Assembly: GCF_000333595.1 (NCBI RefSeq)
Contig: NZ_BADK01000729.1
Span: forward strand, 1 to 37,966
Reading direction: 5' to 3'
Length of the DNA stretch: 37,966 nt
From: Azospirillum sp. B506
GTDB lineage: Bacteria; Pseudomonadota; Alphaproteobacteria; Azospirillales; Azospirillaceae
A program made the translations under genes and the position numbers. Under the pieces are notes generated by a model. The model did not search any database and was not told the origin of the DNA. It worked only from the letters and a program-made list of their open reading frames with translations. The first letter of the stretch is position 1, and each line of letters begins with the position of its first letter. This document shows, in pieces, positions 21,868 through 37,966 of the stretch.

Positions 21868-22689
21868 TCAGCCGGTCGTGGCGACGGTGGCCGGTGGCCG
21901 GCCCCGGCCGCGGGCGGGCTTCGGCGGCTGCCAGCCGAGCCGCACCGAGACGAGGTCGGCATGCTCGATCACCTTGGGGGCGAGTTCGAGCGCGCGCTCC
22001 TCGGTGATCCGGCGGTCCGGACCGCTCACGCTGATCGCGGCGAACACGCGGCCCGAACTGTTGCGGATCGGGGCGGCAACGCAGCGCACGTTGGCTTCCA
22101 TCTCGCCATTGTCGATGGCAAATCCCCGCTCGCGGATCCGGGCTAGCTCGGCCCGGAGCGCGGTCGGATCGGTGATCGTGTTGCGCGTGTAGGCCGGCAG
22201 GCCGAGACCGCAAATCCGGTCGATCACGCGCTCCTCCTGGAAGGACAGGGCGGCCTTGCCCACGCCGGTGCAGTGACAGGGCGAGGATTCCATCACGATC
22301 GTCGAGTTGTTGGGTCCTGACCGGCCGCCCAGCACCCGCTCCACGAAGGACATCCGCCAACCGTCGAAAACGCAGAGATGAACCGACTCGCCGGTGGCCT
22401 GCCCAAGCAGTTCGACGAAGGTGCGGCCCTCGCGATGGATGTCCATGTTGATGAGAACCGCAGTGCCGAGTTCGAACAGCTTGAGACCCAGGCGGTATTC
22501 GAGACGGTTGCCGTCCTGGTCGAGCAGACCGATCTGGCGCAGCGACAGCACCAGCCGATGCGCCGTCGAGCGTGGCAGTCCCGAGCGCTCGGCGATCTCC
22601 GAAACCGACAGGCTGCGGTCGACCGTCGAGAAACATTCGAGGATCGTCATGATCTTCTGGAAGGACTTCACGCCGTAGTCGGATGCCAT
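21868..22689 (-). CDS. IclR-family transcriptional regulator
   Basis: This 273-residue regulator has an N-terminal winged helix (about 8-62; SLSVSEIAERSGLPRSTAHR then LVLSL) and a C-terminal IclR effector domain (about 75-255) with CHCTGVGKAALS and GFAIDNGEMEANVRCVAAPI. The C-terminal tail is Lys/Arg/Pro-rich (PPKPARGRGRPP). It lies between the MFS gene and the TRAP genes on the same strand, so it probably controls the TRAP operon, the MFS gene and the divergent catabolic genes in response to a pathway metabolite. An 11-base palindrome lies just upstream of its start. Confidence 0.9.
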   Translation of the reverse strand: MASDYGVKSFQKIMTILECFSTVDRSLSVSEIAERSGLPRSTAHRLVLSLRQIGLLDQDGNRLEYRLGLKLFELGTAVLINMDIHREGRTFVELLGQATGESVHLCVFDGWRMSFVERVLGGRSGPNNSTIVMESSPCHCTGVGKAALSFQEERVIDRICGLGLPAYTRNTITDPTALRAELARIRERGFAIDNGEMEANVRCVAAPIRNSSGRVFAAISVSGPDRRITEERALELAPKVIEHADLVSVRLGWQPPKPARGRGRPPATVATTG

Positions 22690-24420: not shown

Positions 24421-25338
24421 ATGTCGCTCCCGCTGACGGGGATCATTCCGCCGCTCGTGACGCCGTTCACGGCGGAGGGACGGATCGACGAAAGTGCCTT
24501 CCGCAACGTCGTGCGCTTCACGCTGTCCAAGGGCGTTCATGGGGTTTGCGTCGGCGGTTCGACCGGCGAAGGCCACACCTTGAAGACGGAGGAGCTTGCC
24601 CGCCTGATCGAGATCACCACCGAAGAGGTCGACGGCCGGGTGCCGGTCGTCGCCGGCGTCATCGCCAACTCCACGGGCGACGCCATCGAACGCTCCAGGG
24701 CGGTTGCCAGATTCCCGATCGCCGCCCTCCAGGTCACGCCGGTCCACTATGTCTTCAAGCCGAGCGAAGACGCGACCGTGGACCATTTCGCCCGCCTGAC
24801 CGACGCGGTCGAGGTGCCGGTCGTCATCTACAACGTCATCCCCTGGAACTATCTCAGCCCGTCGCTGCTCGTCCGCATCATGAGCGGAAATCCCGGCGTG
24901 ATCGGGGTGAAGCAGAGCGCCGGCGACCTGAAGCTGATGGCCGACCTGATGCTGACCGTGCCGGCCGGCAAGATCGTGCTGACGGCGGTGGACGCCCTCC
25001 TCTACCCCTCCTTCGCCATCGGTGCGCACGGCACCATCGCCGCCAATCCGGCGGCGGTACCGGGGGTTTGCGTCGCCCTCTGGGATGCGGTGCAGCGCGG
25101 CGACCATGGGACCGCGCACGAGATCCATCGCGCCCTTCTGCGCTTCTGGAACACGATCTCCGCCGATAACCTGCCGGCGAACGTGAAATACGCGCTCGGC
25201 GCCCAGGGCTGCGCCGCCGGCCTGCCGCGGCGGCCGATGCCGGTCTCCTCCAGCGAGCAGCATCGCATGATCGACACCGCCCTCGCCGAGGTTCTGCGCT
25301 TCGATCCGACGGCCGCGCCGAGGAGCGCGGTCGCCTGA
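24421..25338 (+). CDS. DapA/NAL-superfamily aldolase or lyase, copy 1
   Basis: This 305-residue (beta/alpha)8-barrel lyase of the dihydrodipicolinate synthase/N-acetylneuraminate lyase family would form a Schiff base with a 2-oxo acid. Lys164 (GVKQS) is the catalytic lysine, Tyr137 (YNVIPWN) the proton relay, and GGSTGEG (45-51) the pyruvate-carboxylate loop. The arginine that DapA uses to bind its second substrate is not at its usual place after Tyr (YNVIPWN instead of YN.P.R), so this is not a lysine-biosynthetic DapA. It is followed by a second copy and by DhaK/DhaL and an FAD oxidase, pointing to sugar-acid catabolism; the substrate is unknown. Confidence 0.85.
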   Translation: MSLPLTGIIPPLVTPFTAEGRIDESAFRNVVRFTLSKGVHGVCVGGSTGEGHTLKTEELARLIEITTEEVDGRVPVVAGVIANSTGDAIERSRAVARFPIAALQVTPVHYVFKPSEDATVDHFARLTDAVEVPVVIYNVIPWNYLSPSLLVRIMSGNPGVIGVKQSAGDLKLMADLMLTVPAGKIVLTAVDALLYPSFAIGAHGTIAANPAAVPGVCVALWDAVQRGDHGTAHEIHRALLRFWNTISADNLPANVKYALGAQGCAAGLPRRPMPVSSSEQHRMIDTALAEVLRFDPTAAPRSAVA

Positions 25339-25368
25339 GCGGCGCAGGGCCGGACACCCGCCAACGGA

Positions 25369-25397
25369 AGGGGCGCCGCCGGCATCGGGGCGCCCCT
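25369..25397 (+). other. Hairpin between the two DapA-like genes
   Basis: AGGGGCGCC (25369-25377) pairs with GGCGCCCCT (25389-25397) in a 9-bp stem; three more pairs are possible past a bulged G. It has no T-run and lies within what looks like one operon, so RNA processing or stability is as likely as partial termination. Confidence 0.4.
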
Positions 25398-25420
25398 CGG
25401 ACAGCCGAGAACAGGACATC

Positions 25421-26314
25421 ATGACGGTTCGACTCACCGGGATCATTCCCGCCCTGGTTACCCCCTTCGATGCGGACGGCGAGATCCAGGAAGCGCCCTA
25501 CCGGGAGCAAATCCGCTTCATGCTGAAGAAGGGGGTGCACGGCCTCTGCTTCGGCGGATCGACCGGTGAAGGCTTTGCCCTGGAAACCGAGGAGCTGGTC
25601 CGCCTTGCCGGCATCGCGGTGGAGGAGGTCGCCGGCCGGGTGCCGGTGGTTGCGGGCATCATCGCGAACTCGACCAGGGAGGTGCTGAAACGTGGCCGGG
25701 CGCTCGCCGCCACCGGGGTCGATGCGCTCCAGATCACGCCGACCTTCTATGTCTTCACGCCCGACGACGAGACCAACTTCCGCTATTTCGAAAGCGTGGC
25801 GCGCGAGCTGGCGGTGCCGATCGTCCTATACAATGTCATCCCCTGGAACCTGCTCGGGACCGATCTGGTGGTGCGGATCCTGGAAGAGATCCCGAACGTG
25901 GTCGGCATCAAACAGAGCCAGGGCAACATCCACCGTGCCGCCGAGCTCGTGCTCCGGGCGCCCAGGGACAAGGTGATCCTCGCGGCAATCGACGGGCTGC
26001 TCTACCCCTGCTTCGCCATGGGCGCCCACGGTACCCTCGCCGCCTCGCCCACCGCGGTTCCGGGCCCCTGCGTCCGGCTCTGGGACGCGGTGCAGGCGGG
26101 AGACCACGCGACGGCGCGGGCGATCCATGACCGGCTTCTGAATTTCTGGAGCCTGATGCCGCACGACAATCTGCCGGCCTGCGTGAAATACGCCCTCCAA
26201 CTCCAGGGACTCGCAACGGGCGTCTCGCGTGCGCCGATGCCGATGCCGTCGGCGGCCCAGAAGGCGATCATCGAACCGGCGCTGCGCGCGCTTCTCGACT
26301 ACGACGTGGCGTAA
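25421..26314 (+). CDS. DapA/NAL-superfamily aldolase or lyase, copy 2
   Basis: This 297-residue paralogue is collinear with copy 1, with identical positions for the key residues: Lys164 (GIKQS), Tyr137 (YNVIPWN) and GGSTGEG at 45-51. The two share long identical stretches by eye and differ mainly in helix surfaces and the C-terminus, so they arose by tandem duplication and then diverged. Like copy 1 it lacks the DapA arginine after the tyrosine. The two proteins may act on related substrates, or form a hetero-oligomer; this is inference. CAGGA precedes the ATG. Confidence 0.85.
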   Translation: MTVRLTGIIPALVTPFDADGEIQEAPYREQIRFMLKKGVHGLCFGGSTGEGFALETEELVRLAGIAVEEVAGRVPVVAGIIANSTREVLKRGRALAATGVDALQITPTFYVFTPDDETNFRYFESVARELAVPIVLYNVIPWNLLGTDLVVRILEEIPNVVGIKQSQGNIHRAAELVLRAPRDKVILAAIDGLLYPCFAMGAHGTLAASPTAVPGPCVRLWDAVQAGDHATARAIHDRLLNFWSLMPHDNLPACVKYALQLQGLATGVSRAPMPMPSAAQKAIIEPALRALLDYDVA

Positions 26315-26319
26315 CGACG

Positions 26320-26356
26320 GGCGACGCCGCCGGGTCCTTTTCCGGAGCGCGTCGCC
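26320..26356 (+). other. Hairpin between the second DapA-like gene and dhaK
   Basis: GGCGACGC (26320-26327) pairs with GCGTCGCC (26349-26356); an inner CCGG/CCGG pairing encloses a short T-rich loop. It sits in the 69-base gap before the DhaK gene. AAGGAG then leads into the ATG at 26384. It may adjust expression within the operon. Confidence 0.35.
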
Positions 26357-26383
26357 GCGACCGAGATTCCCAAGGAGCGCCCC

Positions 26384-27370
26384 ATGAAGAAACTGATGAA
26401 TTCGGCGGATTCCTTCGTCGACGAGATGCTCGACGGGCTGGTCGCCGCCTGTCCCTCGCTGCGGCGGTCCGGCCGCGTGGTCCGAACCGCCACCGGACCG
26501 GGACCCGGCCGGGTCGGCATCGTGTCGGGCGGCGGCTCCGGCCATCTGCCGCTCTTCACCGGCTATGTCGGCGAAGGACTTCTCGATGCTTGCGCAATCG
26601 GCGACGTCTTTGCCGGACCGTCGGTCGCCTCCTGCGTCGAGGCGATCCGGGCGGCCGACGGCGGCGCCGGCGTGCTTCTCCTCTACGGCAACTACGGCGG
26701 CGACCGCATGAACTTCGATCTCGCCGCGGAATCGGTCGAACTCGACGGCTTGGCCACCCGCAGCGTGCTCGGCGCCGACGACATCGCCTCGGCGGCTCCG
26801 GCGGAGGCGCACAAACGCCGCGGTGTCGCCGGCATCGTCTATGCCTACAAGATCGCCGGGGCCAAGGCGGCGACCGGCGCCGATCTCGATGCGGTGTCCG
26901 CCGCCGCTGCCGCCACCGTCGCAGCGACGCGGACCATCGGCGTGGCCCTGTCGCCCTGTCTCATTCCCGGTGCGGCGTCTCCCGCCTTCGAGCTCGGCGA
27001 CCAGGAGATCGAGATGGGTATGGGCATCCACGGCGAACCTGGCATCTGGCGGGCGCCCCTGACCTCGGCGGACGTGATCGCCGACGAAATGGTCGACCGT
27101 CTCCTCGCCGACCCGGTCGAGGAAAGCTCGAAGCGGGTGTCGGTGATGGTCAATTCCCTTGGCGCGACACCGCTGGAGGAGTTGCTGATCGTCTACCGAC
27201 GGGTGTCGGCCCGCCTGACCGACGCAGGGCTGACCATCGTCAAGCCGCTGGTCGGGCATTTTGCCACCTCCATGGAAATGGCCGGACTGTCGCTCAGCAT
27301 CTGCCGCCTGGACGGGGAACTCGAGGCGCTGCTCGCCGCCCCGGCCGCCTGCCCGTTCTGGAGGGTGTGA
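26384..27370 (+). CDS. dhaK: DhaK-like dihydroxyacetone/tetrulose kinase, substrate-binding subunit
   Basis: This 328-residue DhaK-domain protein binds a short ketose covalently through a histidine. SGGGSGH (48-54, with His54), Asp107 (GDRMNF) and His216 (GIHGEPG) match the E. coli DhaK catalytic residues His56, Asp109 and the substrate-linking histidine. The length is close to stand-alone DhaK. With the adjacent DhaL it should form a two-part kinase. No DhaM phosphotransferase gene is present, so ATP is the likely donor, as in other split ATP-dependent kinases. Close relatives phosphorylate dihydroxyacetone, erythruloses or similar; the true substrate is unknown. Confidence 0.88.
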   Translation: MKKLMNSADSFVDEMLDGLVAACPSLRRSGRVVRTATGPGPGRVGIVSGGGSGHLPLFTGYVGEGLLDACAIGDVFAGPSVASCVEAIRAADGGAGVLLLYGNYGGDRMNFDLAAESVELDGLATRSVLGADDIASAAPAEAHKRRGVAGIVYAYKIAGAKAATGADLDAVSAAAAATVAATRTIGVALSPCLIPGAASPAFELGDQEIEMGMGIHGEPGIWRAPLTSADVIADEMVDRLLADPVEESSKRVSVMVNSLGATPLEELLIVYRRVSARLTDAGLTIVKPLVGHFATSMEMAGLSLSICRLDGELEALLAAPAACPFWRV

Positions 27371-27372
27371 GC

Positions 27373-27993
27373 ATGGCCGACACGCTCGACACAGTGGCCT
27401 TCCGGGCCGCCCTCCTGCGCATCCGCGATGCGGCGGCGGCGGCGCAGGCCGAACTCGACGCCGCCGACGGACGGATCGGCGACGGCGACACCGGCATCAT
27501 GCTGCGCCGCCTTTTCGAGGCAATCGCCATCGCCGCACCGGCGGACGTCGCCGATCTTGGACTGTTCTTCCGCGCCTGCGCCAAGCGGGCCTCGGAGTCG
27601 ACAGGATCGAGCCTCGGCACCCTGGTGACGGTGGCGCTGATGCTGCTCGCCAAGCGGCTGGCCGGACGGACGGAACTCCCGGTCGCCGAACTCGGCGGGC
27701 TTCTGGGCGAAATCCGCGATCAGGCGATGGCGCGCGGCGGGGCGGCGCTCGGCGACAAGACGGTCGTGGACATGCTCGACGCCGTCGCCCGAGCGATCGA
27801 CGGTCTGGACCGGGAGGCCGCAGCCAGGGCGGCCGACCAGGCGGTGGACGAGACGCTTGCCGATTTCCGCGACCGGCCCAACCGGATCGGCCGGGCACGG
27901 ATGTTCGCCGAGCGCAGCATCGGCATCGACGATCCGGGAATGTTGGCCTTTGCGCGGCTCACCGCCGTGCTCACGCGAGCGGAGGGGCGATGA
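27373..27993 (+). CDS. dhaL: DhaL-like kinase subunit, nucleotide-binding
   Basis: This 206-residue helical DhaL-domain protein holds ADP/ATP and magnesium. The Asp triad of the DGRIGDGDTG motif (Asp32, Asp37, Asp39) is intact, and the C-terminal RPNRIGRARMFAERSI segment is typical. The ATG is 2 bases after the dhaK stop and a GGAGGG ribosome site lies in the dhaK end. Its stop overlaps the FAD oxidase start by 4 bases. A broken relative of this C-terminus occurs at 18373-18531. Confidence 0.88.
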   Translation: MADTLDTVAFRAALLRIRDAAAAAQAELDAADGRIGDGDTGIMLRRLFEAIAIAAPADVADLGLFFRACAKRASESTGSSLGTLVTVALMLLAKRLAGRTELPVAELGGLLGEIRDQAMARGGAALGDKTVVDMLDAVARAIDGLDREAAARAADQAVDETLADFRDRPNRIGRARMFAERSIGIDDPGMLAFARLTAVLTRAEGR

Positions 27994-29423
27994 GTTCGAA
28001 CAATGCGGCGACGGAACGGTCGCCCGGAGCCGGTGACGGCGTTGTCCGGGCCGTCGAGGCGCTGCGGCGTCTCCTCGGTCCGCGGCTTTCGACGACGAAG
28101 GCCGAGCGCACCCAGCACAGCCGCGGCGAGGGCCTGCCCGACGTCGGCCTGCCCGATGCCGTCGCCCGTCCGCAGACGACCGAGGAGGTCGCCGCGATCC
28201 TTCGCCTGTGCCATGAACACCGGGTTCCGGTGATCGCCTTCGGTGCGGGCACCTCGCTGGAAGGACAGGTCGCGGCGATCCGGGGCGGCATCTCGGTCGA
28301 CCTGACCGGCCTCGACCGGGTGATCGACATCTCGGCCGACGCGATGGACTGCCGGGTCGAGGCGGGCGTCACCCGCAAGCGGCTCAACGAGGAACTCCGC
28401 CATCTCGGGCTGTTCTTTCCGGTCGATCCGGGGGCGGACGCCACCATCGGCGGCATGACGGCGACGCGGGCTTCCGGCACCAATGCGGTTCGATACGGGA
28501 CGATGCGCGAGAGCGTGCTCGGCCTCACCGTCGTGACGCCGGACGGCACGATCGTCCGGACCGGCACGCGGGCGCGGAAATCCGCTGCCGGCCTGGATCT
28601 GACCGCGCTCTATGTCGGAAGCGAAGGGACGCTCGGCATCGTCACCGAGGTCCAACTGAGGCTCCAGCCGATCCCGGAAGCCATCCTGGCGGCGGTCTGT
28701 TCATTCCGCGACCTGACGGGAGCGGTGAGCACCGCCGTCGCCGCTCTCCAGTCGGGGCTGAGGATGGCGCGCATCGAGCTTCTCGACGAGGTGCAGATGG
28801 ACGCCTGCATCGCCTATTCGAGGCTCGACTATCCGCGCGGTCCGGCGCTGTTCATCGAATTCCACGGCAGCGAGAGCGGAGTTCAGGAGGATGCCGGGAC
28901 GTTCGGCGTGCTTGCTGCCGACCATGGCGGAGGGGCGCTCATCCGCGCGACGGAAACGGAAAACCGCAACCGGCTGTGGAAGGCTCGCCACGACGCCTAT
29001 CACGCGGTGATGGCCCTGGCGCCGGGCAAGGCCAACATGGGGACGGACGCCTGCGTGCCGATCTCCGCCCTGGTCGACTGCCTGCTGGAGACCAAGGCGG
29101 ATGTGGAGGCAAGCGGCCTCGTCGCTCCGATCGTCGGCCATGTCGGGGACGGCAATTTCCATCTTGGCATTCTCTTCGACCCCGACGACGACCGGGAAAG
29201 GCTGGCGGCCGATGCGCTCGCCCGCCGGGTCGGATTGCGGGCGATCGCCTTCGGCGGCACCTGCAGCGGGGAGCATGGGATCGGCATCCACAAGCTCGAC
29301 CAGATGGAAGCGCAACATGGACCGGCTCTCGACCTGATGCGTCGGATCAAGGCGGCTCTCGATCCCGAAGGACTCATGAATCCAGGCAAGCTCATTCCCG
29401 ACGGCATCGTCCCATCGGCTTGA
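27990..29423 (+). CDS. GlcD-like FAD-linked 2-hydroxy-acid oxidase/dehydrogenase
   Basis: This 477-residue flavoprotein of the D-lactate dehydrogenase/glycolate oxidase GlcD group oxidises 2-hydroxy acids and passes electrons to a quinone or cytochrome. The FAD-binding domain shows GAGTSLEGQ (85-93) and DPGADATIGGM, and the C-terminal domain has GEHGIGIHK (about 427-435) and the final LMNPGKLIP. No glcE/glcF partners are present, so it is more like a single-chain D-lactate-type dehydrogenase. The ATG at 27990 overlaps the dhaL stop (ATGA), with GGAGGGG just before it. A longer in-frame reading runs back through dhaL and is rejected. It should supply or consume a hydroxy/oxo acid for the DapA-like lyases (inference). 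Confidence 0.88.
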   Translation: MSSNNAATERSPGAGDGVVRAVEALRRLLGPRLSTTKAERTQHSRGEGLPDVGLPDAVARPQTTEEVAAILRLCHEHRVPVIAFGAGTSLEGQVAAIRGGISVDLTGLDRVIDISADAMDCRVEAGVTRKRLNEELRHLGLFFPVDPGADATIGGMTATRASGTNAVRYGTMRESVLGLTVVTPDGTIVRTGTRARKSAAGLDLTALYVGSEGTLGIVTEVQLRLQPIPEAILAAVCSFRDLTGAVSTAVAALQSGLRMARIELLDEVQMDACIAYSRLDYPRGPALFIEFHGSESGVQEDAGTFGVLAADHGGGALIRATETENRNRLWKARHDAYHAVMALAPGKANMGTDACVPISALVDCLLETKADVEASGLVAPIVGHVGDGNFHLGILFDPDDDRERLAADALARRVGLRAIAFGGTCSGEHGIGIHKLDQMEAQHGPALDLMRRIKAALDPEGLMNPGKLIPDGIVPSA

Positions 29424-29671
29424 ACGAGGCAGGAAGAGGGGGCTGCAGCCGTCCAGCACCGTCAACATGTCGGTCACCCGGATGCCTGGGCCACCAGTGG
29501 CGGGCTATGGGACGGCATGACGACACGCCCGATTCCCGCTATGCCGGCCATGGGTATCGATATCGCGACGCATGAATCCTACTCATGCATGGACGCCGGA
29601 TAAATCGTTTGTCGGAAGCGGGCAGGATGCGGAGGTTTGGCCCACGGTTTTCAGCGTCGACAATTGGAGGA

Positions 29672-30130
29672 ATGGCCTTGGCAAACGGAATCGAACGCTA
29701 TTCGCTGGAGGAGTCCTCGCCCTACCGGACCCAATTCCTGGAATCGGTGCGGGTTCCGGTCGATGGAACCGAATTCCTGATGCTGAGTGGGCTGACGCCA
29801 CCGGTCATCGACAGCTCCGTTCCGAGCGACCGAGCCGAGGCCTATGGCGACACGGAGGTCCAGACCCGCAACATCCTGGCGGAGTTGAAGGCTACGCTGG
29901 AACGGCGCGGCTATGGCCTGAACGATGTGGTCAAGGTCCAGGCCTTCCTCGTCGGCGACGCGCAGATGGGCGGGCATGCCGATTTCCAGGGCTTTTCCCG
30001 TGCCTACGCGGAGGCCTTCGGCACCGCAAAGACCCCGAACATCCCAGTGCGCACCCGCGTGCAGGTGGCCGGACTGGTGGAACCGGGCTGGCTGGTGGAG
30101 ATCGAGGCGATGGCCGCCAAGGCGGGGTGA
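29672..30130 (+). CDS. RidA/YjgF-family imine deaminase-like protein
   Basis: This protein of about 150 residues has the RidA fold. RidA proteins hydrolyse reactive enamine/imine intermediates and form trimers. NIPVRTRVQVAGL carries the conserved catalytic arginine and LVEIEAMA the conserved glutamate. The N-terminus is longer than in E. coli RidA, as in catabolic relatives. GGAGG (29666-29670) is only 1 base from the ATG at 29672 but 7 from a TTG at 29678, so translation may begin at the TTG. It lies 248 bases after the FAD oxidase gene, too far for sure co-transcription, and converges on the amidase operon, which contains an imine-forming type of dehydrogenase. Confidence 0.85.
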   Translation: MALANGIERYSLEESSPYRTQFLESVRVPVDGTEFLMLSGLTPPVIDSSVPSDRAEAYGDTEVQTRNILAELKATLERRGYGLNDVVKVQAFLVGDAQMGGHADFQGFSRAYAEAFGTAKTPNIPVRTRVQVAGLVEPGWLVEIEAMAAKAG

Positions 30131-30145
30131 CCGCCGCCGCAACGG

Positions 30146-31438
30146 TCAGGCGGACCCGTCCGGCGATCCGCCGAACCGTTCGGCGATGGCGAGAAGCAGA
30201 TCGTCCGCACCGGGACGCCCGACGATCTGGATCCCCACCGGCATCCCGTTGCGGTCGCGCCCGGCCGGCAGCGCCAGCGCCGGCAGGCCAAGCAGGCTGA
30301 AGGGGCGGTTGAAGCGCAGGAAGGCCAGGGTGGTGGCTCCGGCAATGGTCACGTCGTCGTCGTCGACACCATCCAGACGCGGGGCCGGCCCACCGATCAC
30401 CGGACAGAGCAGGATGTCCACCGCAGCGAAAGCACCCCCGATCACCGCCACCCGATGGGCGTCGCGGTCGCGCAGCGCCTGGTCGTAGGCATCGCGCCCC
30501 ACCTCGGCCGCCGCGACCAGACGTCGCCGCACCGCCGCCGGGTACCAGTCCGGGCGCTCGGCCAGCACCGTCCGATGCAAGGCCGACGCCTCGAACGAGG
30601 TGATGGTCCCGGCGCAGGCGTTCAGCGCGTCGAGCGACGGCAGGGCGACCTCGGCCGGAACGGCTCCGCCCATGGTCATCCGGCGGAGGATGGACTGGAT
30701 GACCGCGGCGACCTCCGGCTCCACCCCAGTCCGGAGCCATTCCGTCGGCAGACCGACCCGCGGAGGGCCGACACCCGAATCGTGATGCTCCCTGCACACC
30801 GGATCGCGCAGCACCGCAAACACCGCGCGCAGCAGGGTGGGATCGCGGGCGATGATCCCGATGACATCCTGCGACGGCGACAGCGGCGCGATGCCGGGAT
30901 CCCGGATGGCCCCGGCCGTCGGCTTGAAGCCGAGGACGCCGCACAAGGCGGCCGGGATGCGCACCGACCCGCCGGTGTCGGTGCCGAGAGCGAAGGGCAC
31001 GATACCGGAGGCGACCGCCGCCGCCGATCCGCTCGACGACCCGCCGACGGCGAACCGCGCATCCACCGGGTTCAGCACCCGCCCGAAACAGGGATTCAGC
31101 CCAGTGGCGGCATAACAATGCGGGTCGAGGTTCAGCGCCCCGATGGCGATGGCTCCCGCCGCCGCCAGACGGTCGAGCGCCATGCTGGTCCGCGCACCGC
31201 CCCAGCGGTAGCCATGTCCAACCCCCACCGTCGGCTGCCGCCCGGCAGTGACGAAAACGTCCTTGTAGGCGAAGGGAAGCCCCCAGGGCGCCGGTCGCGG
31301 ATCGCCCGCCGACAGCGACCGCGCCCGCTCCTCCGCGTCGGGGAACAGTTCGATGAAGGCGTTGAGCCGGCTGGCGCGCGCCGCGGCCAAGGCGGCCGTG
31401 ACGGCCTGGACAGGGTCGCGGGAAGACGCGGCGGTCAT
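30146..31438 (-). CDS. Amidase-signature-family amidohydrolase
   Basis: This 430-residue enzyme has the complete Ser-cisSer-Lys triad of the amidase signature family: Lys59 (AYKDVF), Ser134 (GGSSSGSA) and Ser158 (GTDTGGSVRIPAALCG). These enzymes hydrolyse amides to acid and ammonia, and members include malonamidase, allophanate hydrolase and aryl-acylamidase. No signal peptide is visible. It is the last gene of the - strand operon, 105 bases after the RraA-like gene, and ends 15 bases from the convergent RidA gene. The context suggests that it deaminates an acid amide made by the PuuE-like enzyme (inference). Confidence 0.9.
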   Translation of the reverse strand: MTAASSRDPVQAVTAALAAARASRLNAFIELFPDAEERARSLSAGDPRPAPWGLPFAYKDVFVTAGRQPTVGVGHGYRWGGARTSMALDRLAAAGAIAIGALNLDPHCYAATGLNPCFGRVLNPVDARFAVGGSSSGSAAAVASGIVPFALGTDTGGSVRIPAALCGVLGFKPTAGAIRDPGIAPLSPSQDVIGIIARDPTLLRAVFAVLRDPVCREHHDSGVGPPRVGLPTEWLRTGVEPEVAAVIQSILRRMTMGGAVPAEVALPSLDALNACAGTITSFEASALHRTVLAERPDWYPAAVRRRLVAAAEVGRDAYDQALRDRDAHRVAVIGGAFAAVDILLCPVIGGPAPRLDGVDDDDVTIAGATTLAFLRFNRPFSLLGLPALALPAGRDRNGMPVGIQIVGRPGADDLLLAIAERFGGSPDGSA

Positions 31439-31543
31439 GCTGAGACCCTTTCAACAAAGGTGGCGCGGTGCGGGGGCATGGCGGCGGCAATTCCGGAACA
31501 GCCCCATTTCCGGCAGGCGGAAACGGGGCCGCCCGGCAGGGCG

Positions 31544-32242
31544 TCAGACGTGGCCGTAGCGGTCCAGCGCCTGCGCCAGGGTCAAGCCGTTCGACAGCTC
31601 CTCGCGGATGCGAATCTCGGTCGCGGTCAGCGCCTCGGATTCCGCCAGCACCTTCGGAACGATGGCCGCCGGGATGGCGAGCGCGCCGTCCTCGTCGGCC
31701 AGGATGAAGTCGCCGGGCTCGATCCGCACGCGCTCCACCGTGGCCCCGCGCAGGAAGACCGGAACCTGCCAGGCGTTGACCTTCCAACGGCCGATCGACT
31801 GCACCGGCGTGCGGTAGCGGGCATAGACCGGGAAGCCGTGATGGCCGAGCCAGCGCACGTCGCGGATGCCGCCGTCGACCAGCGCGCCGGTGCTGCCGCG
31901 CTCCTTCATGCCGATGGCGATCAGCTCGCCGAAATAGCAGATGCCGTCGCCATCGCCGCTCCACACCGACACGTCGCCGGGCGACAGCCCCTGGCACGCC
32001 GCCATCTTGTCGGTGTCGCCGCCCAGCGGGTACGGGGTCATCTGGCCGCGGATGGTGTAGGCCCAGCCGGCCAGCCGCCCGGCTGTGGCGGGATATGGCA
32101 TGAAGTCCGCCGCCAGCCCCTGGTCGGGCCAGCCCATCACGTCGAGCACGTCGGCGACGTTGGAGGTGTCGACGGCCAGGAATCGGGTGCGGATGTCCTC
32201 GCGCTGCGCGGCGGTGAGGACAGTGTCGGTGTTGTAGCTCAT
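31544..32242 (-). CDS. RraA-like class II pyruvate aldolase (HMG/CHA aldolase family)
   Basis: This 232-residue protein belongs to the RraA/4-hydroxy-4-methyl-2-oxoglutarate aldolase family. The metal/substrate motif GEL (105-107) followed by DGGIRD (123-128, Arg127 and Asp128) is that of active aldolases in the family, and PGDFILADEDGALAIP matches the conserved C-terminal strand. Active members cleave 4-hydroxy-2-oxo acids or decarboxylate oxaloacetate; RraA itself only inhibits RNase E. Presence in a catabolic operon favours the enzyme role. The ATG at 32242 is 20 bases after the SDR stop. A much longer in-frame reading upstream runs antiphase through two genes and is rejected. Confidence 0.85.
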   Translation of the reverse strand: MSYNTDTVLTAAQREDIRTRFLAVDTSNVADVLDVMGWPDQGLAADFMPYPATAGRLAGWAYTIRGQMTPYPLGGDTDKMAACQGLSPGDVSVWSGDGDGICYFGELIAIGMKERGSTGALVDGGIRDVRWLGHHGFPVYARYRTPVQSIGRWKVNAWQVPVFLRGATVERVRIEPGDFILADEDGALAIPAAIVPKVLAESEALTATEIRIREELSNGLTLAQALDRYGHV

Positions 32243-32262
32243 GCTGGGGATCCTTCGGACTG

Positions 32263-33063
32263 TCAGATGCTGGGGATGTAACCGCCGTCCACCCGCAGGG
32301 TGGAGCCGGTGACGTAGGCGGCGCGCTCGCTGGCCAGAAAGGCGACGGCGTCGGCGTATTCGCGGGGATCGCCGTAGCGGGCCATCGGGATGGCGGCGGT
32401 GCTCTCGGCGACGACCTCGGCGAGCGGCCGCCCCTCGCGCGCCGCCTTGCTCTCGTCCAGGAAGCGGATGCGGTCGGTGGCGATGCGGCCGGGCAGGACG
32501 ACGTTGACGGTCACGCCGTCGGCCGCCACCTCGCGGGCCAGCGACTTGGACCAGCCGACCAGGGACAGGCGCAGCGCGTTGGACAGGGCGAGGTTGGGGA
32601 TCGGCGCGACGACGCCCGACGAGGCGCTGGTGACGATCCGGCCCCAGCGCCGCGTCCGCATGCCGGGCAGCACGCGGTCGGTGATGCGGATGACCGACAG
32701 CACCATCGCCTCGAACTGCGCCGACCAGATCTTCGGATCGACGCCGCTGGCCGGCGACGGCGGCGGGCCGCCGGTGTTGTTGACCAGGATGTCGATTCCA
32801 CCGAACCGTTCCTCGGCCAGGGCGACGTTGCGGTCGGTGGCGGCCGCGTCGCCCAGATCCCAGACGATGGGGAGACAGGGCACGGAGGTTTCGGCGCCAA
32901 CAGTTTCGGCGAGGATTGCGCTGGTGGCAGCGAGCGACGGCGCGTCGCGGTCGGCGATGACGAGGTTGGTGCCTTCGCGCGCCAGACCCAGGGCGATGGC
33001 GCGGCCGAGCCCGCCCCCGGCGCCGAGTACCAGGGCGGTGCGGCCGGAAAGTCCGAGATCCAT
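32263..33063 (-). CDS. SDR-family protein lacking the usual Tyr-x3-Lys
   Basis: This 266-residue Rossmann protein has GAGGGLGRA (14-22) for the dinucleotide, NNTGG in place of NNAG, and a normal C-terminal VTGSTLRVDGG. The serine region SASSG is present, but the place of the catalytic Tyr-x3-Lys reads LALSN, so both residues are missing. A known FabG-like subgroup of SDRs shares this trait, so the protein is probably intact and unorthodox rather than damaged. It lies between the aspartate-dehydrogenase-like and RraA-like genes. Its reaction is unknown; a hydroxy-acid or diol oxidation step would fit the context. Confidence 0.82.
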   Translation of the reverse strand: MDLGLSGRTALVLGAGGGLGRAIALGLAREGTNLVIADRDAPSLAATSAILAETVGAETSVPCLPIVWDLGDAAATDRNVALAEERFGGIDILVNNTGGPPPSPASGVDPKIWSAQFEAMVLSVIRITDRVLPGMRTRRWGRIVTSASSGVVAPIPNLALSNALRLSLVGWSKSLAREVAADGVTVNVVLPGRIATDRIRFLDESKAAREGRPLAEVVAESTAAIPMARYGDPREYADAVAFLASERAAYVTGSTLRVDGGYIPSI

Positions 33064-33108
33064 GACGAATCCCCCTTCTGTTTTTCGTTTCTTGCTGAAA
33101 TCGGGCGC

Positions 33109-33966
33109 TCAGGAGCCGACGCGCAGCGGCGCGCGCAGCTTGCGCAGATAGGCCAGCACCGACAGGGCAGTGATGCGGCCGGTCTTCGGGTTGTCGGTCG
33201 GGATGTTCTCGATCGCCATGGTGAAGGTCGCCGAATCCGCCTCGACCTCGATGCGGTGGGTGTTGCGCTCCAGCGCCGGGTCGGCCCAGATCTCCAGCGT
33301 CGTGCGGTCGGGGCCGATGCCGGCCAGCGACAGCGCCACCGCGACGTTCAGATTGGCCGGGAAGCCGACCGCCGCCTCGCGCGGCGTGCCGTGGAAGATT
33401 CGCAGCGGGCCGGTGATGTCCTCGATGGCGATGTTGTTCTCGACCAGATAGGGGGCGCCGACCAGACCGCGGACCGGCTTGCGGGTGACCATGCGCACGG
33501 CGCGGATTTCCCCCTCCGCCGCCGCCGTCACCGCGTCGAGCCCGAGCAGCGCCCCGGTCGGCACGACGATCTGCCCGCCATGGGCGCGGGCGATGGAAAT
33601 CAACCCCTCGTTGGCCAGCAGGGCGCCGGAACTGAGCACCACCGCCGTCTTGCCGGCGCGGAGGAAGGGCCCGACGATGGCCGGAAGCAGCGCTGCGGGG
33701 GCGCATTCGACGACGAGGTCGGCGAGCGGCTCCAGCCCGGCGACGTCCACCACCGGCACCGGGCGGGTCAGGGCGGACAGGCGATCCGCCGCCGCCGCCT
33801 TGTCGCGGGCCGAGACGGCGGTCAGCACACAGCCGTCGAGGCCGTCGTCGAGCGCCTCGACGATCTTCAGTCCGACGGCACCGAGGCCGGCGACGGCGAC
33901 TCGCAACGGGGGCAGAGCGCGGGCGTGCGCCGGGGTTTGGGACAGCCCAAGGGGCGTCTCAGTCAT
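33109..33966 (-). CDS. Aspartate dehydrogenase-like protein (NadX/AspDH family)
   Basis: This 285-residue protein has an N-terminal NAD-binding motif AGLGAVG (26-32), then the family's PTGALLGLDA (136-145), FPANLNVAVALSLAGIG, and ERNTHRI with the conserved His237. The C-terminus NPKTGRITALSVLAYLRKL is typical of L-aspartate dehydrogenase, which oxidises aspartate to iminosuccinate with NAD(P)+. The roughly 20-residue N-terminal extension is unusual but may be translated. No nadA or nadC is nearby, so a catabolic role is favoured over NAD synthesis. The likely product is an imine, which fits with the RidA gene across the operon end. Confidence 0.85.
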   Translation of the reverse strand: MTETPLGLSQTPAHARALPPLRVAVAGLGAVGLKIVEALDDGLDGCVLTAVSARDKAAAADRLSALTRPVPVVDVAGLEPLADLVVECAPAALLPAIVGPFLRAGKTAVVLSSGALLANEGLISIARAHGGQIVVPTGALLGLDAVTAAAEGEIRAVRMVTRKPVRGLVGAPYLVENNIAIEDITGPLRIFHGTPREAAVGFPANLNVAVALSLAGIGPDRTTLEIWADPALERNTHRIEVEADSATFTMAIENIPTDNPKTGRITALSVLAYLRKLRAPLRVGS

Positions 33967-34021
33967 GATGGAACCTTTCGGATGGGAGCCGGCCCTGACG
34001 AGGGCCGGCGTCAGGGACGGG

Positions 34022-34924
34022 TCAGGGTCTGGCCGGAGCGGCCGTTGCCGGCGGCGGCATCAGCGCGGCAAAATGGTCGGCGATCTGGCCGGCGGTGGCG
34101 AACCAAACCGCGTCGCGGTGGGCGTCGAGATGCTCCAGCACCCGGCGGAACTGCTTGATGCGGAAAGGCTGGCCGACGATGAAGCTGTGGATGGTGATGC
34201 CATAGGCGAGCGGCTGGTCCTTCGACTGGCGCAGCATCTCGTCGAAATTGTCGATGGCCATGTCGGCGAAGGCCGGTGCCGTGCCGTCATGCAGCACCAC
34301 CATCGGCACGTCGTTCACCTCATGCGGATAGGGCACGCTCAGCAGCGGCCCGCCGGTGGTCCGCATCCACACCGGCTGGTCGTCCATCGGCCAGTCCAGC
34401 GTGTAGCGGTAGCCGGCCTCCGCCAGCAGATCCTCGGTGTTGGCGCTGGGATGGGCGCCGGGGCTCATCCAGCCGGCGGGGGGCTTGCCCTCGCGGCGGC
34501 GGATGGCCTCGGTCGCCTCGGCGATCAGGCGGCGCTCTTCTTCAATGCTCATGCCGTTCTGGTGCTCGCCGTTGGTGCGGCCATGGGCGACGATCTCGTC
34601 GCCGCGGCGGCGCAGCGCCGCGACCAGTTCCGGGCAATGCTCGTAGCATTCGGTGTTGAGCAGCACCGTCAGCGGCAGGCGGTGGGCGTCGAACAGGTCG
34701 ATCAGCCGCCAGCCGCCGACCCGGTTGCCATATTCCCGCCACGCCCAGTTGTAGCTGTTGGGATGGCTCAGCCCCGGCGAATAGGGCAGGCCGAGGCCGC
34801 TGCCGTAGGGGAAATGCTCGACGCAGAGTGCCACATAGACGGCCAGCCGCTTGCCGCCCGGCCAGGAGAAGTCGGGGCGGTCGGTGATCGCGGAATAAGG
34901 GAAGCGGTTGTGGGAGGGGAGCAT
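34022..34924 (-). CDS. Polysaccharide deacetylase-fold hydrolase, PuuE (allantoinase)-like
   Basis: This 300-residue protein is of the NodB-fold group to which the metal-free allantoinase PuuE belongs. PNSYNWAWREYGNRVGGWRL (about 55-74) is characteristic of the PuuE-like branch. HGRTNGEH holds His114 and His121, matching the second NodB motif. The C-terminal GITIHSFIVGQPFRIKQF segment also matches. These enzymes open cyclic amides or remove N-acyl groups. It follows the binding-protein gene of a sugar-type ABC transporter by 28 bases, so it may act first on the imported compound. The precise substrate is unknown; no other uric-acid-pathway genes are in the window. Confidence 0.85.
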   Translation of the reverse strand: MLPSHNRFPYSAITDRPDFSWPGGKRLAVYVALCVEHFPYGSGLGLPYSPGLSHPNSYNWAWREYGNRVGGWRLIDLFDAHRLPLTVLLNTECYEHCPELVAALRRRGDEIVAHGRTNGEHQNGMSIEEERRLIAEATEAIRRREGKPPAGWMSPGAHPSANTEDLLAEAGYRYTLDWPMDDQPVWMRTTGGPLLSVPYPHEVNDVPMVVLHDGTAPAFADMAIDNFDEMLRQSKDQPLAYGITIHSFIVGQPFRIKQFRRVLEHLDAHRDAVWFATAGQIADHFAALMPPPATAAPARP

Positions 34925-34952
34925 CGCGGATCCTGCCTTCGGTTCGATGGAT

Positions 34953-35912
34953 TCAGGGCCGATAGTCGGCCGGGGCGACGACCGAGCTTAGATCGACCTC
35001 GCCCAGCGTGTCCGAGGTGACGAGCAGCGCCGGCAGCACGACCTTGGCCTCGACCGGCTTCCCGCCGGCGGCGGCCAGCGCCTGGGTGAGGGCGGCGCGG
35101 CCCTGCGCCACCACCTGCTGGATGGAGGTGCAGGCCAGCTCGCGGTCCTTCAGCAGCTGCTGCGCCGTCGGACTGAAGTTGGAGGCGGAGACCCGCACCG
35201 CCGGCATGCGGCCGGCGGCCTTCATCGCGGCGACCACGCCGGCCGCCATGTCGTCAGTGGCGGCGTAGACGCCTTTCAGGTCAGGGAAGCGCTGGGTCCA
35301 GTCCTCCGCCGTGGTCAGGGCGGCGTTGCGGTTGTCGGCCAGCCGGGATTCGGCGACGACCGTCACCTCCGGCGCCTCCTTCGCCAGCGTCTCGCGGAAG
35401 CCCTTGGCCCGCAGGTCGGACCAGGCCTGCCCGGTCGGCCCGGCCATCATCGCCACCTCGCCCTTGCCGCCGATGGCCTGGGCCAGGCAGCGCGCCTGGA
35501 GACGGCCCATGTCGTAATGGTCGGCGCTGACCGTGGCGCTGAGCCGGTCGCTGTTGGGCGGCGAGGAGATGCCGACCACCGGGATGCCGCGGCCGACCGC
35601 CTGCTCCACCACAGCCCGGACCGCGTCGCCGTTGGTGGCGCCGACGATGATGGCGGCGACGCCGCGCTGGGCCAGATCCTGGATCTGGGCGATCTGCTGG
35701 CTGGTGTTGGCGTCGCCGCCGGCATTCAGCTTGACCAGCGTGACGCCGGCGGCCTTGGCCTCCTGCTCCGCCCCGTAGACGGCGGAGATCCAGAAGGACG
35801 AGGCAAGGTTGGGGATGGCGAAGCCGATGGCCTTGTCCTGCGCCAGGGCTGGCGCGGTGGAGAGCAGGAGGGCGGCGAGGCTTCCGGCGAAGCGGATCGG
35901 GGAGCGGGTCAT
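34953..35912 (-). CDS. Sugar-type ABC transporter substrate-binding protein (RbsB-like)
   Basis: This 319-residue periplasmic protein of the peripla_BP_4 group has a signal peptide ending in ALA|Q (about 24) and a mature start DKAIGFAIPNLASSFW typical of RbsB relatives. VGATNGDAVRAVVEQA, GIPVVGISSPPNSDRL and VYAATDDMAAGVVAAMKAAG follow the usual two-domain pattern. Ligands of the group include sugars, polyols and autoinducer-2, but also purines and other small compounds. The ATG at 35912 overlaps the permease stop by 4 bases. It is unusual that the binding protein is the last of the transporter genes and directly precedes the enzymes. Confidence 0.88.
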   Translation of the reverse strand: MTRSPIRFAGSLAALLLSTAPALAQDKAIGFAIPNLASSFWISAVYGAEQEAKAAGVTLVKLNAGGDANTSQQIAQIQDLAQRGVAAIIVGATNGDAVRAVVEQAVGRGIPVVGISSPPNSDRLSATVSADHYDMGRLQARCLAQAIGGKGEVAMMAGPTGQAWSDLRAKGFRETLAKEAPEVTVVAESRLADNRNAALTTAEDWTQRFPDLKGVYAATDDMAAGVVAAMKAAGRMPAVRVSASNFSPTAQQLLKDRELACTSIQQVVAQGRAALTQALAAAGGKPVEAKVVLPALLVTSDTLGEVDLSSVVAPADYRP

Positions 35913-36916
35913 GTCCGTGTCCTTGATTGGGAGGGAAAGGACGGCAGAGAGCGCAGAAGCGTTTCGAGAAGGCCGGAGGCGATGATGACCACCCCGACGG
36001 CGATCTGGGCGACGAAGGGCGAGACGCCCTGGAGGTTGAGGCCGGTCAGCAGCACCTGGATGAAGGCGGCCCCGATCACGACGGCGGCCACGCTGGCGAT
36101 GCCGCCGCTGAGCGCGGTCCCGCCGATGACCGCGGCAGCAATGGCCTGAAGCTCCATCCCCGCCCCTTCGGTCGGCAGACCGGAGCCGGCGCGGACCGTC
36201 ATCAGCACCCCGGCGAGGCCAGCGAACAGCCCGCACAGGCCATAGGCCCAGAGCTGGACGCGCCGGCTGTCGACGCCGACCAGCGCCACCGCCTCGGGGT
36301 TCGACCCGGCCATCAGGATGCGCCGGCCGACGAGGCTGCGGCCGACCAGCAGGGCCGCCCCGACCGCCAGGACCAGCGCCGCCCAGCTGGCGGCGGGCAG
36401 GACCGGCATCGGCTCGAAACCGAGACGGGTCACCGCGGCGGCCGCGTCGAGCGGCACCACCTGCCCGTCGCCGGTGATAAGCAGCGACAGGCCGCGCACC
36501 GCGATCAGGCTGCCCAGCGTCGCCACCACCGGCTGGAGGCCGAGCGTGCCGACCAGCGCACCGTTGACCAGCCCGCAGAGCAGCCCGGCCAGCGCTCCGA
36601 CGGCCAGTCCGGGCAGGCCCCAGCCGTTGCAGGCCATCGCCGCGCAGACGCTGGACAGGGCGGCGACGGCGCCGACCGAGATGTCGAAGCCTCGGGTCGC
36701 CAACACGAACATCTGGCCGATGGCGAGCAGGGCGAGAACCCAGACCTGCGCCCCGATGTTGGCGGCGTTGCCCAGGCTGAGGAAGCGCGGCGCGGTGGCC
36801 GCGAACACCGCCACCGCCAGGATCAGGCAGAGCGGCGCGACCCGGAAGGGGATGGGAAGGAGGGAACCGGCGGCGCGCAGGCCATCGGCGGAACGGCGCA
36901 GGAGACGGGGGCTCAT
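35909..36916 (-). CDS. Sugar-type ABC transporter permease 2 (RbsC-like)
   Basis: This 335-residue inner-membrane permease has about 8-10 helices. GQMFVLATRGFDISVGAVAAL (about 87-107) is the RbsC signature, and GSNPEAVALVGVDSRRVQLW the following cytoplasmic loop; GMELQAIAAAVIGGTALSGG is the conserved ATPase-side segment. It overlaps the other permease gene by 4 bases and the binding-protein gene by 4. With the other permease it probably forms a heterodimeric channel. Confidence 0.9.
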   Translation of the reverse strand: MSPRLLRRSADGLRAAGSLLPIPFRVAPLCLILAVAVFAATAPRFLSLGNAANIGAQVWVLALLAIGQMFVLATRGFDISVGAVAALSSVCAAMACNGWGLPGLAVGALAGLLCGLVNGALVGTLGLQPVVATLGSLIAVRGLSLLITGDGQVVPLDAAAAVTRLGFEPMPVLPAASWAALVLAVGAALLVGRSLVGRRILMAGSNPEAVALVGVDSRRVQLWAYGLCGLFAGLAGVLMTVRAGSGLPTEGAGMELQAIAAAVIGGTALSGGIASVAAVVIGAAFIQVLLTGLNLQGVSPFVAQIAVGVVIIASGLLETLLRSLPSFPSQSRTRT

Positions 36917-37917
36917 GACCGCTCCTCCTCGGGCTGGCGGGCGGGCCGGACCGGCAGCAGCAGGAGCAGCCGGGGAGCCTGTTGGAGGAGCACCGCGCCG
37001 AGGATCACGGCGGCGATCATCAGCTGCTGGTAGGCGACGGGCAGGTTCAGCAGCACAACCGCGTTGTTCAACATGGCGATGACCAGCACGCCGCATAGCG
37101 TCTGCACCGCCCTCCCCTGCCCGCCCGCCAGCGGGATGCCGCCGACGGCGCAGGCCGCGATGGTCTCGAAGGGCAGGTTGGGGGCGAGGCCGGGCTGGCC
37201 GGAGGCGACCCGGCTGGTCAGGATGACGGCGGCAAGCGCGCAGAAGGCACCGGCCACCAGATAGCCCGCCAGCACCGACCGCCACACCGTGATGCCGGAC
37301 AGCCGCGCCGCCGTGCCGTTGGCGCCGACGAGGTACCAGAGCCTGCCAGCGCGGGTGTGGCCGAGCAGCAAGTGCAGCAGGGCGAAGCTTGCCGCCGCCG
37401 CCAGGATCGGCACCGGGATGCCGGCGATCCGGCCGCGCGCCGGCCAGGAGAAGGCGTCGCTGGGCGGCGCGTCGATCGGCAGGCCGCCGGCCAGCACCGC
37501 CGCCCCGCCGCCGGCCACCATCAGCATGCCGAGCGTGACGAGAAAGGGCGGCAGGGAAAAGCGCGCGACCAGCGTGCCGTTGACGAGGCCGACCAGCAGC
37601 ACCGACGCCGCACCGGCCGCGAAGCCGCCCGCCACCCCGGCGGACGGCAGGGCCAGCACCGTCACCACGCTGGCCAGCGCCGCCGACGCGCCGAAGGAGA
37701 ACTCGATCCCGCCAAGGATCAGCACGATGGTCTGGCCGCAGGCGGCGATGCCGAGGATGGACCCGACCCGCAGCAGATTCTCCAGGTTGCCGGCGCTGGC
37801 GAAGCGCGGCACCGCCATGGCGAAGACGCAGAACAGCAGCAGGACGACCCAGACGGCGGCGGGCGGGTTGAGACGGCCGGGAAAGGGACGCGGCCGGGTG
37901 CCGGTCAGGGCCATCAT
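36913..37917 (-). CDS. Sugar-type ABC transporter permease 1 (RbsC-like)
   Basis: This 334-residue permease of the same family as its neighbour has GQTIVLILGGIEFSFGASAAL (about 61-81; the usual DLSVG is changed to EFSFG) and FETIAACAVGGIPLAGG near the C-terminus. The tail is rich in Leu/Pro/Arg. The start at 37917 is an ATGATG overlapping the upstream ATPase stop, so either ATG may be used. Two different permeases, not one homodimer, point to the branch of Rbs-type systems with heterodimeric channels. Confidence 0.87.
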   Translation of the reverse strand: MMALTGTRPRPFPGRLNPPAAVWVVLLLFCVFAMAVPRFASAGNLENLLRVGSILGIAACGQTIVLILGGIEFSFGASAALASVVTVLALPSAGVAGGFAAGAASVLLVGLVNGTLVARFSLPPFLVTLGMLMVAGGGAAVLAGGLPIDAPPSDAFSWPARGRIAGIPVPILAAAASFALLHLLLGHTRAGRLWYLVGANGTAARLSGITVWRSVLAGYLVAGAFCALAAVILTSRVASGQPGLAPNLPFETIAACAVGGIPLAGGQGRAVQTLCGVLVIAMLNNAVVLLNLPVAYQQLMIAAVILGAVLLQQAPRLLLLLPVRPARQPEEERS

Positions 37918-37966
37918 GCCGCCCTCCGTCCGGCCAGCCTGTCCATCATGGCTGTGCGGCCGGTGC
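37914..37966 (-). CDS. C-terminus of sugar-type ABC ATPase (partial, cut by window end)
   Basis: The last 17 codons of a - strand gene (TGRTAMMDRLAGRRAA before TGA) overlap the permease start. Position directly before two RbsC-like permeases and the ATG-RTA type ending suggest the RbsA-like ATPase, but too little is visible to prove it. Confidence 0.5.
   Translation of the reverse strand, partial: TGRTAMMDRLAGRRAA

Follow-up and report, generated by a model that had tools for sequence, protein, structure and literature searches.

Organization of the locus

The DNA examined here is one whole contig of Azospirillum sp. B506 (NZ_BADK01000729.1), which ends at position 37966 and is referred to below, over its full length of 37,966 nucleotides, as the window. 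Within positions 30146–37966 it carries eight minus-strand genes, from a permease to an amidase, separated from their neighbours by −4 to 105 bp, which form a single operon. We propose that this operon, whose recurrent core consists of a PuuE-like hydrolase and an L-aspartate dehydrogenase (AspDH), is devoted to the uptake and breakdown of a small cyclic amide, imide or ureide, with release of nitrogen, a reading to which we give a probability of about 0.55.

The first two genes code for ATP-binding cassette (ABC) permeases of the CUT2 type: permease 1 (36913..37917, minus strand, as for all eight genes; PF02653, 6e-28), which is RbsC/AraH-like but falls under the equivalog cut-offs, and permease 2 (35909..36916; PF02653, 1e-31), whose gene overlaps each of its neighbours by 4 bp. 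They are followed by the genes of a TorT/RbsB-like periplasmic binding protein with an N-terminus that looks signal-like by eye (34953..35912; PF13407, 5.1e-54), a predicted PuuE-like cyclic amide/imide hydrolase whose relatives are annotated as polysaccharide deacetylases (34022..34924; PF01522, 5.2e-9), AspDH (33109..33966; 420.4 bits against the equivalog NF009825, or PRK13302, for a cut-off of 253), a protein of the short-chain dehydrogenase/reductase (SDR) fold that lacks the Tyr-x3-Lys pair (32263..33063; PF13561, 8.1e-45), an RraA-like protein of the class II pyruvate-aldolase fold family (31544..32242; PF03737, 1.2e-22) and an amidase-signature amidase (30146..31438; PF01425, 4.5e-73). 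A gene for a RidA-family protein lies convergent to the operon (29585..30130, plus strand; PF01042, 2.7e-16); its start is uncertain (the gene has 453 bp in the A. brasilense annotation).

The original prediction described a transporter followed by five enzymes on the same strand, and all the genes that it named are there, above the curated Pfam cut-offs (BPD_transp_2 twice, Peripla_BP_4, Polysacc_deac_1, Asp_DH_C, adh_short_C2, RraA-like and Amidase); what the window does not contain is the ABC ATPase of that transporter, because the contig stops at 37966. In A. brasilense (NZ_CP059451) the same gene order continues into an ATPase gene and a divergent LysR gene, and at this orthologous locus the ATPase, the permeases and the RbsB-fold binding protein that make up a CUT2 transporter occur together. 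Most of the window genes have 92–97% protein identity to those of A. brasilense and A. lipoferum. The operon shows no promoter-like site, and terminator-like sites are no commoner there than in shuffled sequence.

Conservation of the hydrolase and AspDH genes

The PuuE-like protein, in the form of an alignment, was used to scan genome contigs, which gave at least 580 confirmed relatives, and the best 80 loci were analysed. Together with six plasmid loci they make up 25 close loci, whose hydrolase is at least 63% identical to that of the window, and 61 distant ones (L043–L045 and L068–L125; 49–59% identity). AspDH is encoded at the same locus in 20 of the 25 close loci and in none of the 61 distant ones; at the Leisingera locus, L042, it stands in an operon of its own within the region. 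Among the five close loci without AspDH, two (L056 and L067) are cut by contig ends, and L059, L062 and L063 lack the gene. On a quick tree of 94 rows, the AspDH label changes five times, compared to a mean of 20.2 when the labels are shuffled, and a number as low was obtained in none of 500 shuffles. L056 and L067, whose contigs end at or just after the hydrolase, are labelled as cut on this tree; there are four changes if they are omitted, and five as drawn. The association of the hydrolase with AspDH exceeds chance.

The loci linked to AspDH span Pseudomonadota and Actinomycetota, and include Azospirillum, Bosea and its kin, Microvirga, Ancylobacter, Enterovirga, Leisingera, Pseudomonas, Pararobbsia, Pandoraea, Mycobacterium montefiorense, Mycolicibacterium canariasense and metagenome-assembled genomes. 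Since the gene set recurs across phyla, it is not a chance juxtaposition. In 16 other loci, the hydrolase and AspDH occur together with the binding protein and the two permeases, and an open reading frame of the same LysR group as that of A. brasilense is present in 16 of the 25 close loci. The mycobacterial loci have a GntR gene where others have LysR, and the gene order is rearranged across clades.

Within the genus, a close orthologue of the hydrolase is found in only five of 44 other genomes (two of them being those of loci L040 and L046), each time with an adjacent binding protein, AspDH and SDR, so that the operon is accessory and patchy in Azospirillum. Among 369 genomes from the class to which Pararobbsia belongs, no close hydrolase was found beyond that of Pararobbsia itself.

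The family of M. canariasense includes 33 further genomes with PuuE-like relatives, at 55–62% identity to the protein of that species (L159–L191); 32 of the 33 are without AspDH in the stretch read, and the cluster is present only in L160. Several of these 33 duplicate loci already counted, so they were kept out of the counts. As for plasmids, the loci read are 7 of 71 hydrolase records, 2 of 7 for RraA, 6 of 155 for SDR, and 5 of 17 for AspDH outside the cluster.

The PuuE-like hydrolase

The structural model of the hydrolase (pLDDT 86.6) is closest to the allantoinase PuuE (3cl6), with a Z score of 34.1 over 275 residues, a root mean square deviation of 2.0 and 27% identity. Next are 3s6o (33.9), 1z7a (33.9), 3rxz (31.8) and HpPgdA (3qbu, 30.5), and then there is a drop to ArnD (20.6), the chitin and peptidoglycan deacetylases being lower still; this ranking is drawn from the 1000 best chains of Foldseek. 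A sequence comparison also gives PuuE as the nearest solved structure (1.1e-28), with many positions in common. The model thus places the predicted fold in the PuuE/HpPgdA small-molecule branch of CE4, and not among the polysaccharide deacetylases. The cavity of PuuE is considerably reduced and the active site of HpPgdA is likewise obstructed; both are described as restricted, small-molecule active sites (PMC3084791).

The window protein scores 138.1 bits against the PuuE allantoinase equivalog TIGR03212, far under the cut-off of 424.6. The position that we take to be the second metal-binding His of the CE4 motif is an Asn in all 26 close orthologues. The neighbours of the hydrolase in its relatives also have to be considered: in Variovorax RA8 the hydrolase gene overlaps an amidase gene, in Sulfitobacter it lies within a hydantoin operon, and in L062 it adjoins an Amidohydro_1 gene that appears dihydropyrimidinase-like by eye. 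Altogether, we regard it as likely that the PuuE-like protein is a ring hydrolase.

On the plasmid pDP3 of Alicycliphilus (L205, 8986–17170), a PuuE-like gene is one gene away from an amidase gene and near genes of the xanthine-dehydrogenase family and XdhC; this locus may encode a route for an N-heterocycle.

AspDH

The AspDH of the window is well above the equivalog cut-off, and the motif DPxxxxNxH is kept, including its His, in all 21 cluster enzymes. This His is presumably a functional residue of AspDH. The most likely substrate of the cluster enzyme is aspartate itself.

The gene was rejected as a marker of the cluster: outside the genus, the cluster is found at only one of 17 AspDH loci read (four further matches within the genus being cluster genomes already counted). 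Of the five plasmid AspDH loci outside the cluster, two are in EhuABCD ectoine-uptake operons, one is near hydantoin genes and two are in neither context. In the first two, from plasmids of Rhizobium and Mesorhizobium (L197, 5933–9804; L199, 5946–9807), AspDH directly follows the transporter genes. Beside the Leisingera cluster (L042, 9395–10518), a Lyase_1 protein, aspartase-like by eye, is encoded in two overlapping open reading frames; this split is possibly a broken gene or a sequencing error.

The amidase and RidA

The amidase is a member of the amidase-signature family (247.2 bits against PF01425 for a cut-off of 27), and the Lys and both Ser regions are present in the 15 proteins compared. 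The gene occurs in 14 of 20 other loci linked to AspDH. Identity between the amidases of different clades is mostly 25–44% (50–54% between Azospirillum and Microvirga), compared to 48–83% for the AspDH of the same loci, which suggests repeated recruitment of the amidase. The RidA gene was seen at 4 of the 25 related loci, and its membership in the set is uncertain.

The SDR and RraA pair

Genes for both SDR and RraA are found in 14 other loci linked to AspDH, and both are absent from five of the 19 that have room for them (L042, L049, L055, L057 and L064); L051, whose contig ends after AspDH, is omitted from this count. At E ≤ 1e-20, no RraA was detected in the genomes of L049, L055, L057 and L064, which are possibly incomplete, nor in the Leisingera plasmid record. 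The pair is an optional two-gene add-on. On the best AspDH tree, joint gain or loss of the two genes accounts for at least four changes, with a single independent pair on branches that are well supported, and 65 of 500 shuffles gave a result as low. That the two genes move together is therefore suggestive at most, since the shuffle control failed and only one pair is well supported.

Classical SDR oxidoreductases use a Tyr-x3-Lys catalytic pair. It is present in none of the 15 cluster SDRs (residues 145–175), which are thus not classical SDRs by this criterion, and is also absent, by eye, from the eight homologues outside the cluster and, as aligned, from the five closest chains of known structure, 2z1n and 5va8 among them. 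An ordinary dehydrogenase step should therefore not be assumed.

In RraA, an Arg-Asp pair is kept in 15 of 15 proteins; in the aldolase of P. putida, this Arg stabilises the pyruvate enolate and the Asp binds the metal (PMC5065237). The protein of the window reaches 77.1 bits against the HMG/CHA aldolase/oxaloacetate decarboxylase equivalog NF006731, under its cut-off of 179, and the residue aligned with the Asp of YFGDL in 3noj is Glu in 15 of 15.

Outside the cluster, the two genes are adjacent in five of eight RraA or SDR loci (two from Deinococcus, and R. leguminosarum, Ensifer and Methylobacterium) and not adjacent in Ideonella, Martelella and Sphaerotilus. The subfamilies are mixed in these pairs: an SDR of the window type goes with an RraA of 27–30% identity in Rhizobium, Ensifer and Methylobacterium, and an RraA of the window type with an SDR of 39–42% identity in Deinococcus. 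We know of no reaction for an SDR without catalytic residues paired with an RraA-like protein. SDRs with a Ser-Asn motif stand beside RraA-like genes in unrelated operons (L192, 8998–10473; L193, 9013–10475; L194, 8830–10341; L200, 8905–10410; L201, 2011–3574).

The binding protein

The binding protein is under the cut-offs of both the RbsB equivalog NF007936 (89.1 bits for 337) and the TorT model NF008185 (132.9 bits for 200). Its nearest solved structure is 2ioy (1.9e-30), in which the Asp-Arg of the DRSANG stretch presumably contacts ribose. These two residues are Ser-Ser in the window protein and in 17 of 17 orthologous binding proteins, which makes an ordinary sugar ligand less likely.

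An NCS1 permease of the nucleobase/allantoin type is encoded downstream of the M. canariasense cluster. It was dropped as a general clue to the substrate because it is one case only: the 33 further stretches from the same family contain no match to it.

Proposed function

We infer the reactions, their order and induction by the substrate from protein families, gene layout, conservation, motifs and predicted fold. The compound would be imported by the CUT2-type ABC transporter, and its ring would be hydrolysed by the PuuE-like enzyme to give a half-amide or a carbamoyl acid. The amidase, which probably acts after ring opening, would then take off the remaining amide or ureido nitrogen, leaving L-aspartate or a close analogue; aspartate as an intermediate is about equally probable. 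AspDH would convert aspartate to iminosuccinate/oxaloacetate, which enters the tricarboxylic acid cycle, with release of ammonia, and RidA may hydrolyse the imine. A place downstream for SDR and RraA, where they would process the resulting 2-oxo acid, for example from oxaloacetate to pyruvate, is more doubtful and is put forward tentatively.

This sequence from uptake to oxaloacetate is proposed because of a fungal precedent, the neighbours of the hydrolase relatives, the AspDH loci outside the cluster and the Lyase_1 protein of Leisingera. The precedent is the nicotinate route of Aspergillus nidulans, in which an imide is opened by the cyclic imidase HxnM, a structural relative of HpPgdA and PuuE, after which the amidase HxnN frees the nitrogen (PMC9304392). 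There too, with HxnW, a dehydrogenase, a cyclic imidase of this kind and an amide hydrolase act in sequence on a small ring, but the system is fungal, its product is 2-hydroxyglutarate, and the excerpted text of the paper mentions neither AspDH nor RraA (PMC9304392). HxnM is 64.2% identical to the imidase of P. putida (PMC9304392); the window hydrolase is likened to these two proteins by description.

As for the substrate, hydantoin-5-acetate, dihydroorotate and aspartimide are guesses. A more specific proposal is that the operon serves for the catabolism, across phyla, of a cyclic derivative of aspartate (hydantoin-5-acetate/dihydroorotate or aspartimide), that the PuuE-like protein and the amidase are encoded by the genes of carboxymethylhydantoinase and ureidosuccinase, activities to which, to our knowledge, no genes have been assigned, and that the SDR without Tyr and Lys carries out with the RraA-like protein an undescribed reaction. 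All of this together is rather improbable.

Several observations weigh against the operon being a pathway for a cyclic nitrogen compound. The activities and the ligand are predictions, and the counts from the scan refer to the best 80 of at least 580 relatives, so that they cover the nearer gene contexts. Three loci with a close hydrolase (L059, L062 and L063) do without AspDH, and the AspDH-linked hydrolases are clustered on the tree but do not form one clean clade. The presence of the cluster at one of the 17 AspDH loci outside the genus means that AspDH is generic, and the plasmid AspDH loci of Pseudoroseomonas and Palleronia have no genes for cyclic compounds in the stretch viewed. The amidase is absent at the four Bosea-type loci (three of the four genomes or records, only the plasmid being considered for Bosea F3-2, have amidases of 32–38% identity elsewhere), and just 8 of the 61 distant loci have an amidase similar to that of the window. 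The NCS1 permease stands alone, five of the six genomes tested having no match at E ≤ 1e-20. Last, the CUT2 family transports mostly sugars.

It could be argued that the substrate of the CE4-fold enzyme is an N-acyl amino acid or amino sugar, from which it removes the acyl group, and that the resulting amine goes to the amidase and AspDH. The fold is indeed that of the CE4/polysaccharide deacetylase superfamily (PF01522) and many relatives are annotated as such, but the model is far nearer to PuuE (Z 34) than to the polysaccharide deacetylases (Z at most 21), the restricted active sites of PuuE and HpPgdA are suited to small molecules (PMC3084791), and Asn replaces the presumed second metal His of the CE4 motif in the 26 close orthologues; we consider this route unlikely. 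The CUT2 permeases and the RbsB-fold binding protein would also fit an ordinary operon for a sugar or amino sugar, in which the nitrogen enzymes are incidental. Against this, no family of sugar kinase, isomerase or glycosidase is represented among the eight genes, the presumed ribose contacts are replaced by Ser-Ser in all 17 binding proteins, and the binding protein stays with the hydrolase and AspDH in 16 other loci, which leaves this explanation with little probability.

An allantoin route with a true PuuE allantoinase, to which the nearest match by sequence and by fold and the NCS1 permease of M. canariasense point, is hardly credible given the score against TIGR03212; moreover, the families of the operon include no allantoicase, allantoate amidohydrolase or ureidoglycolate gene, and AspDH is not known to take part in allantoin catabolism. 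It may also be that the genes do not belong to one pathway, AspDH serving for the synthesis of NAD or aspartate and the SDR–RraA pair and the amidase being passengers. AspDH is indeed without the cluster in 16 of 17 loci outside the genus, and the pair and the amidase come and go between loci. The link between hydrolase and AspDH holds, however, in both Pseudomonadota and Actinomycetota despite re-ordering and the exchange of LysR for GntR in mycobacteria, and we judge this explanation quite unlikely.

We thus retain the uptake and breakdown of a cyclic amide, imide or ureide. The idea that these genes serve for the catabolism of a nitrogen compound, by means of a PuuE-like hydrolase, an amidase and AspDH, is supported, as is the conservation of the operon. 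The search of genome neighbourhoods that had been suggested for the five-enzyme set recovers the hydrolase–AspDH core (20 of 25), while SDR, RraA and amidase are variable. A fixed route of five enzymes is not supported, since SDR and RraA are both missing in five of 19 AspDH-linked loci with room, the amidase shows little similarity from clade to clade and is missing in the Bosea-type loci, the SDR is without the catalytic Tyr and Lys, and RidA, which may deal with imines, occurs at 4 of the 25 related loci.

Relation to known systems

Each enzyme type is already known, while the operon, which is real and conserved, is probably undescribed: no description of this gene set was found in the open-licence literature, judged mostly by title and abstract, nor any matching pathway. 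The allantoinase PuuE (3cl6) is the nearest in fold and shares many aligned positions, but it has 27% identity and other gene neighbours, and the window protein is under the allantoinase cut-off. The EhuABCD ectoine operons with AspDH (Rhizobium CCGE531, Mesorhizobium NZP2077) resemble the operon in that they combine ABC uptake of a cyclic nitrogen compound with AspDH directly after and an amidase near; on the contrary, their transporter belongs to another family and there is no PuuE-like or RraA gene in the stretch. In hydantoin gene groups, a PuuE-like relative (Sulfitobacter SK012) or AspDH (Neorhizobium NCHU2750) is encoded among or close to genes for hydantoinase and carbamoylase, but a dihydropyrimidinase is annotated for ring opening and the carbamoylases are annotated otherwise than as amidase.

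If our reading is correct, soil, plant-associated and marine bacteria would have an undescribed route from a cyclic nitrogen compound to aspartate, and small-ring chemistry would be assigned to proteins now annotated as polysaccharide deacetylases. It would also bring to notice the recurrent pairing of SDRs devoid of catalytic residues with RraA-like proteins.

Other genes of the window

Elsewhere in the window (24421–29423, plus strand; 21868–22689 and 18637–19926, minus strand) lies a separate set consisting of two genes of the dihydrodipicolinate synthase (DHDPS) family, kinase genes with Dak1/Dak2 domains, a GlcD-like FAD oxidase, an IclR regulator and a DctM protein of the tripartite ATP-independent periplasmic (TRAP) type. 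The DHDPS, DhaKL and FAD-oxidase genes were considered as members of the pathway and rejected, because they are unmatched in the 24.9 kb stretch of A. brasilense that contains the operon. This set is perhaps an acid-sugar or related catabolic cluster.

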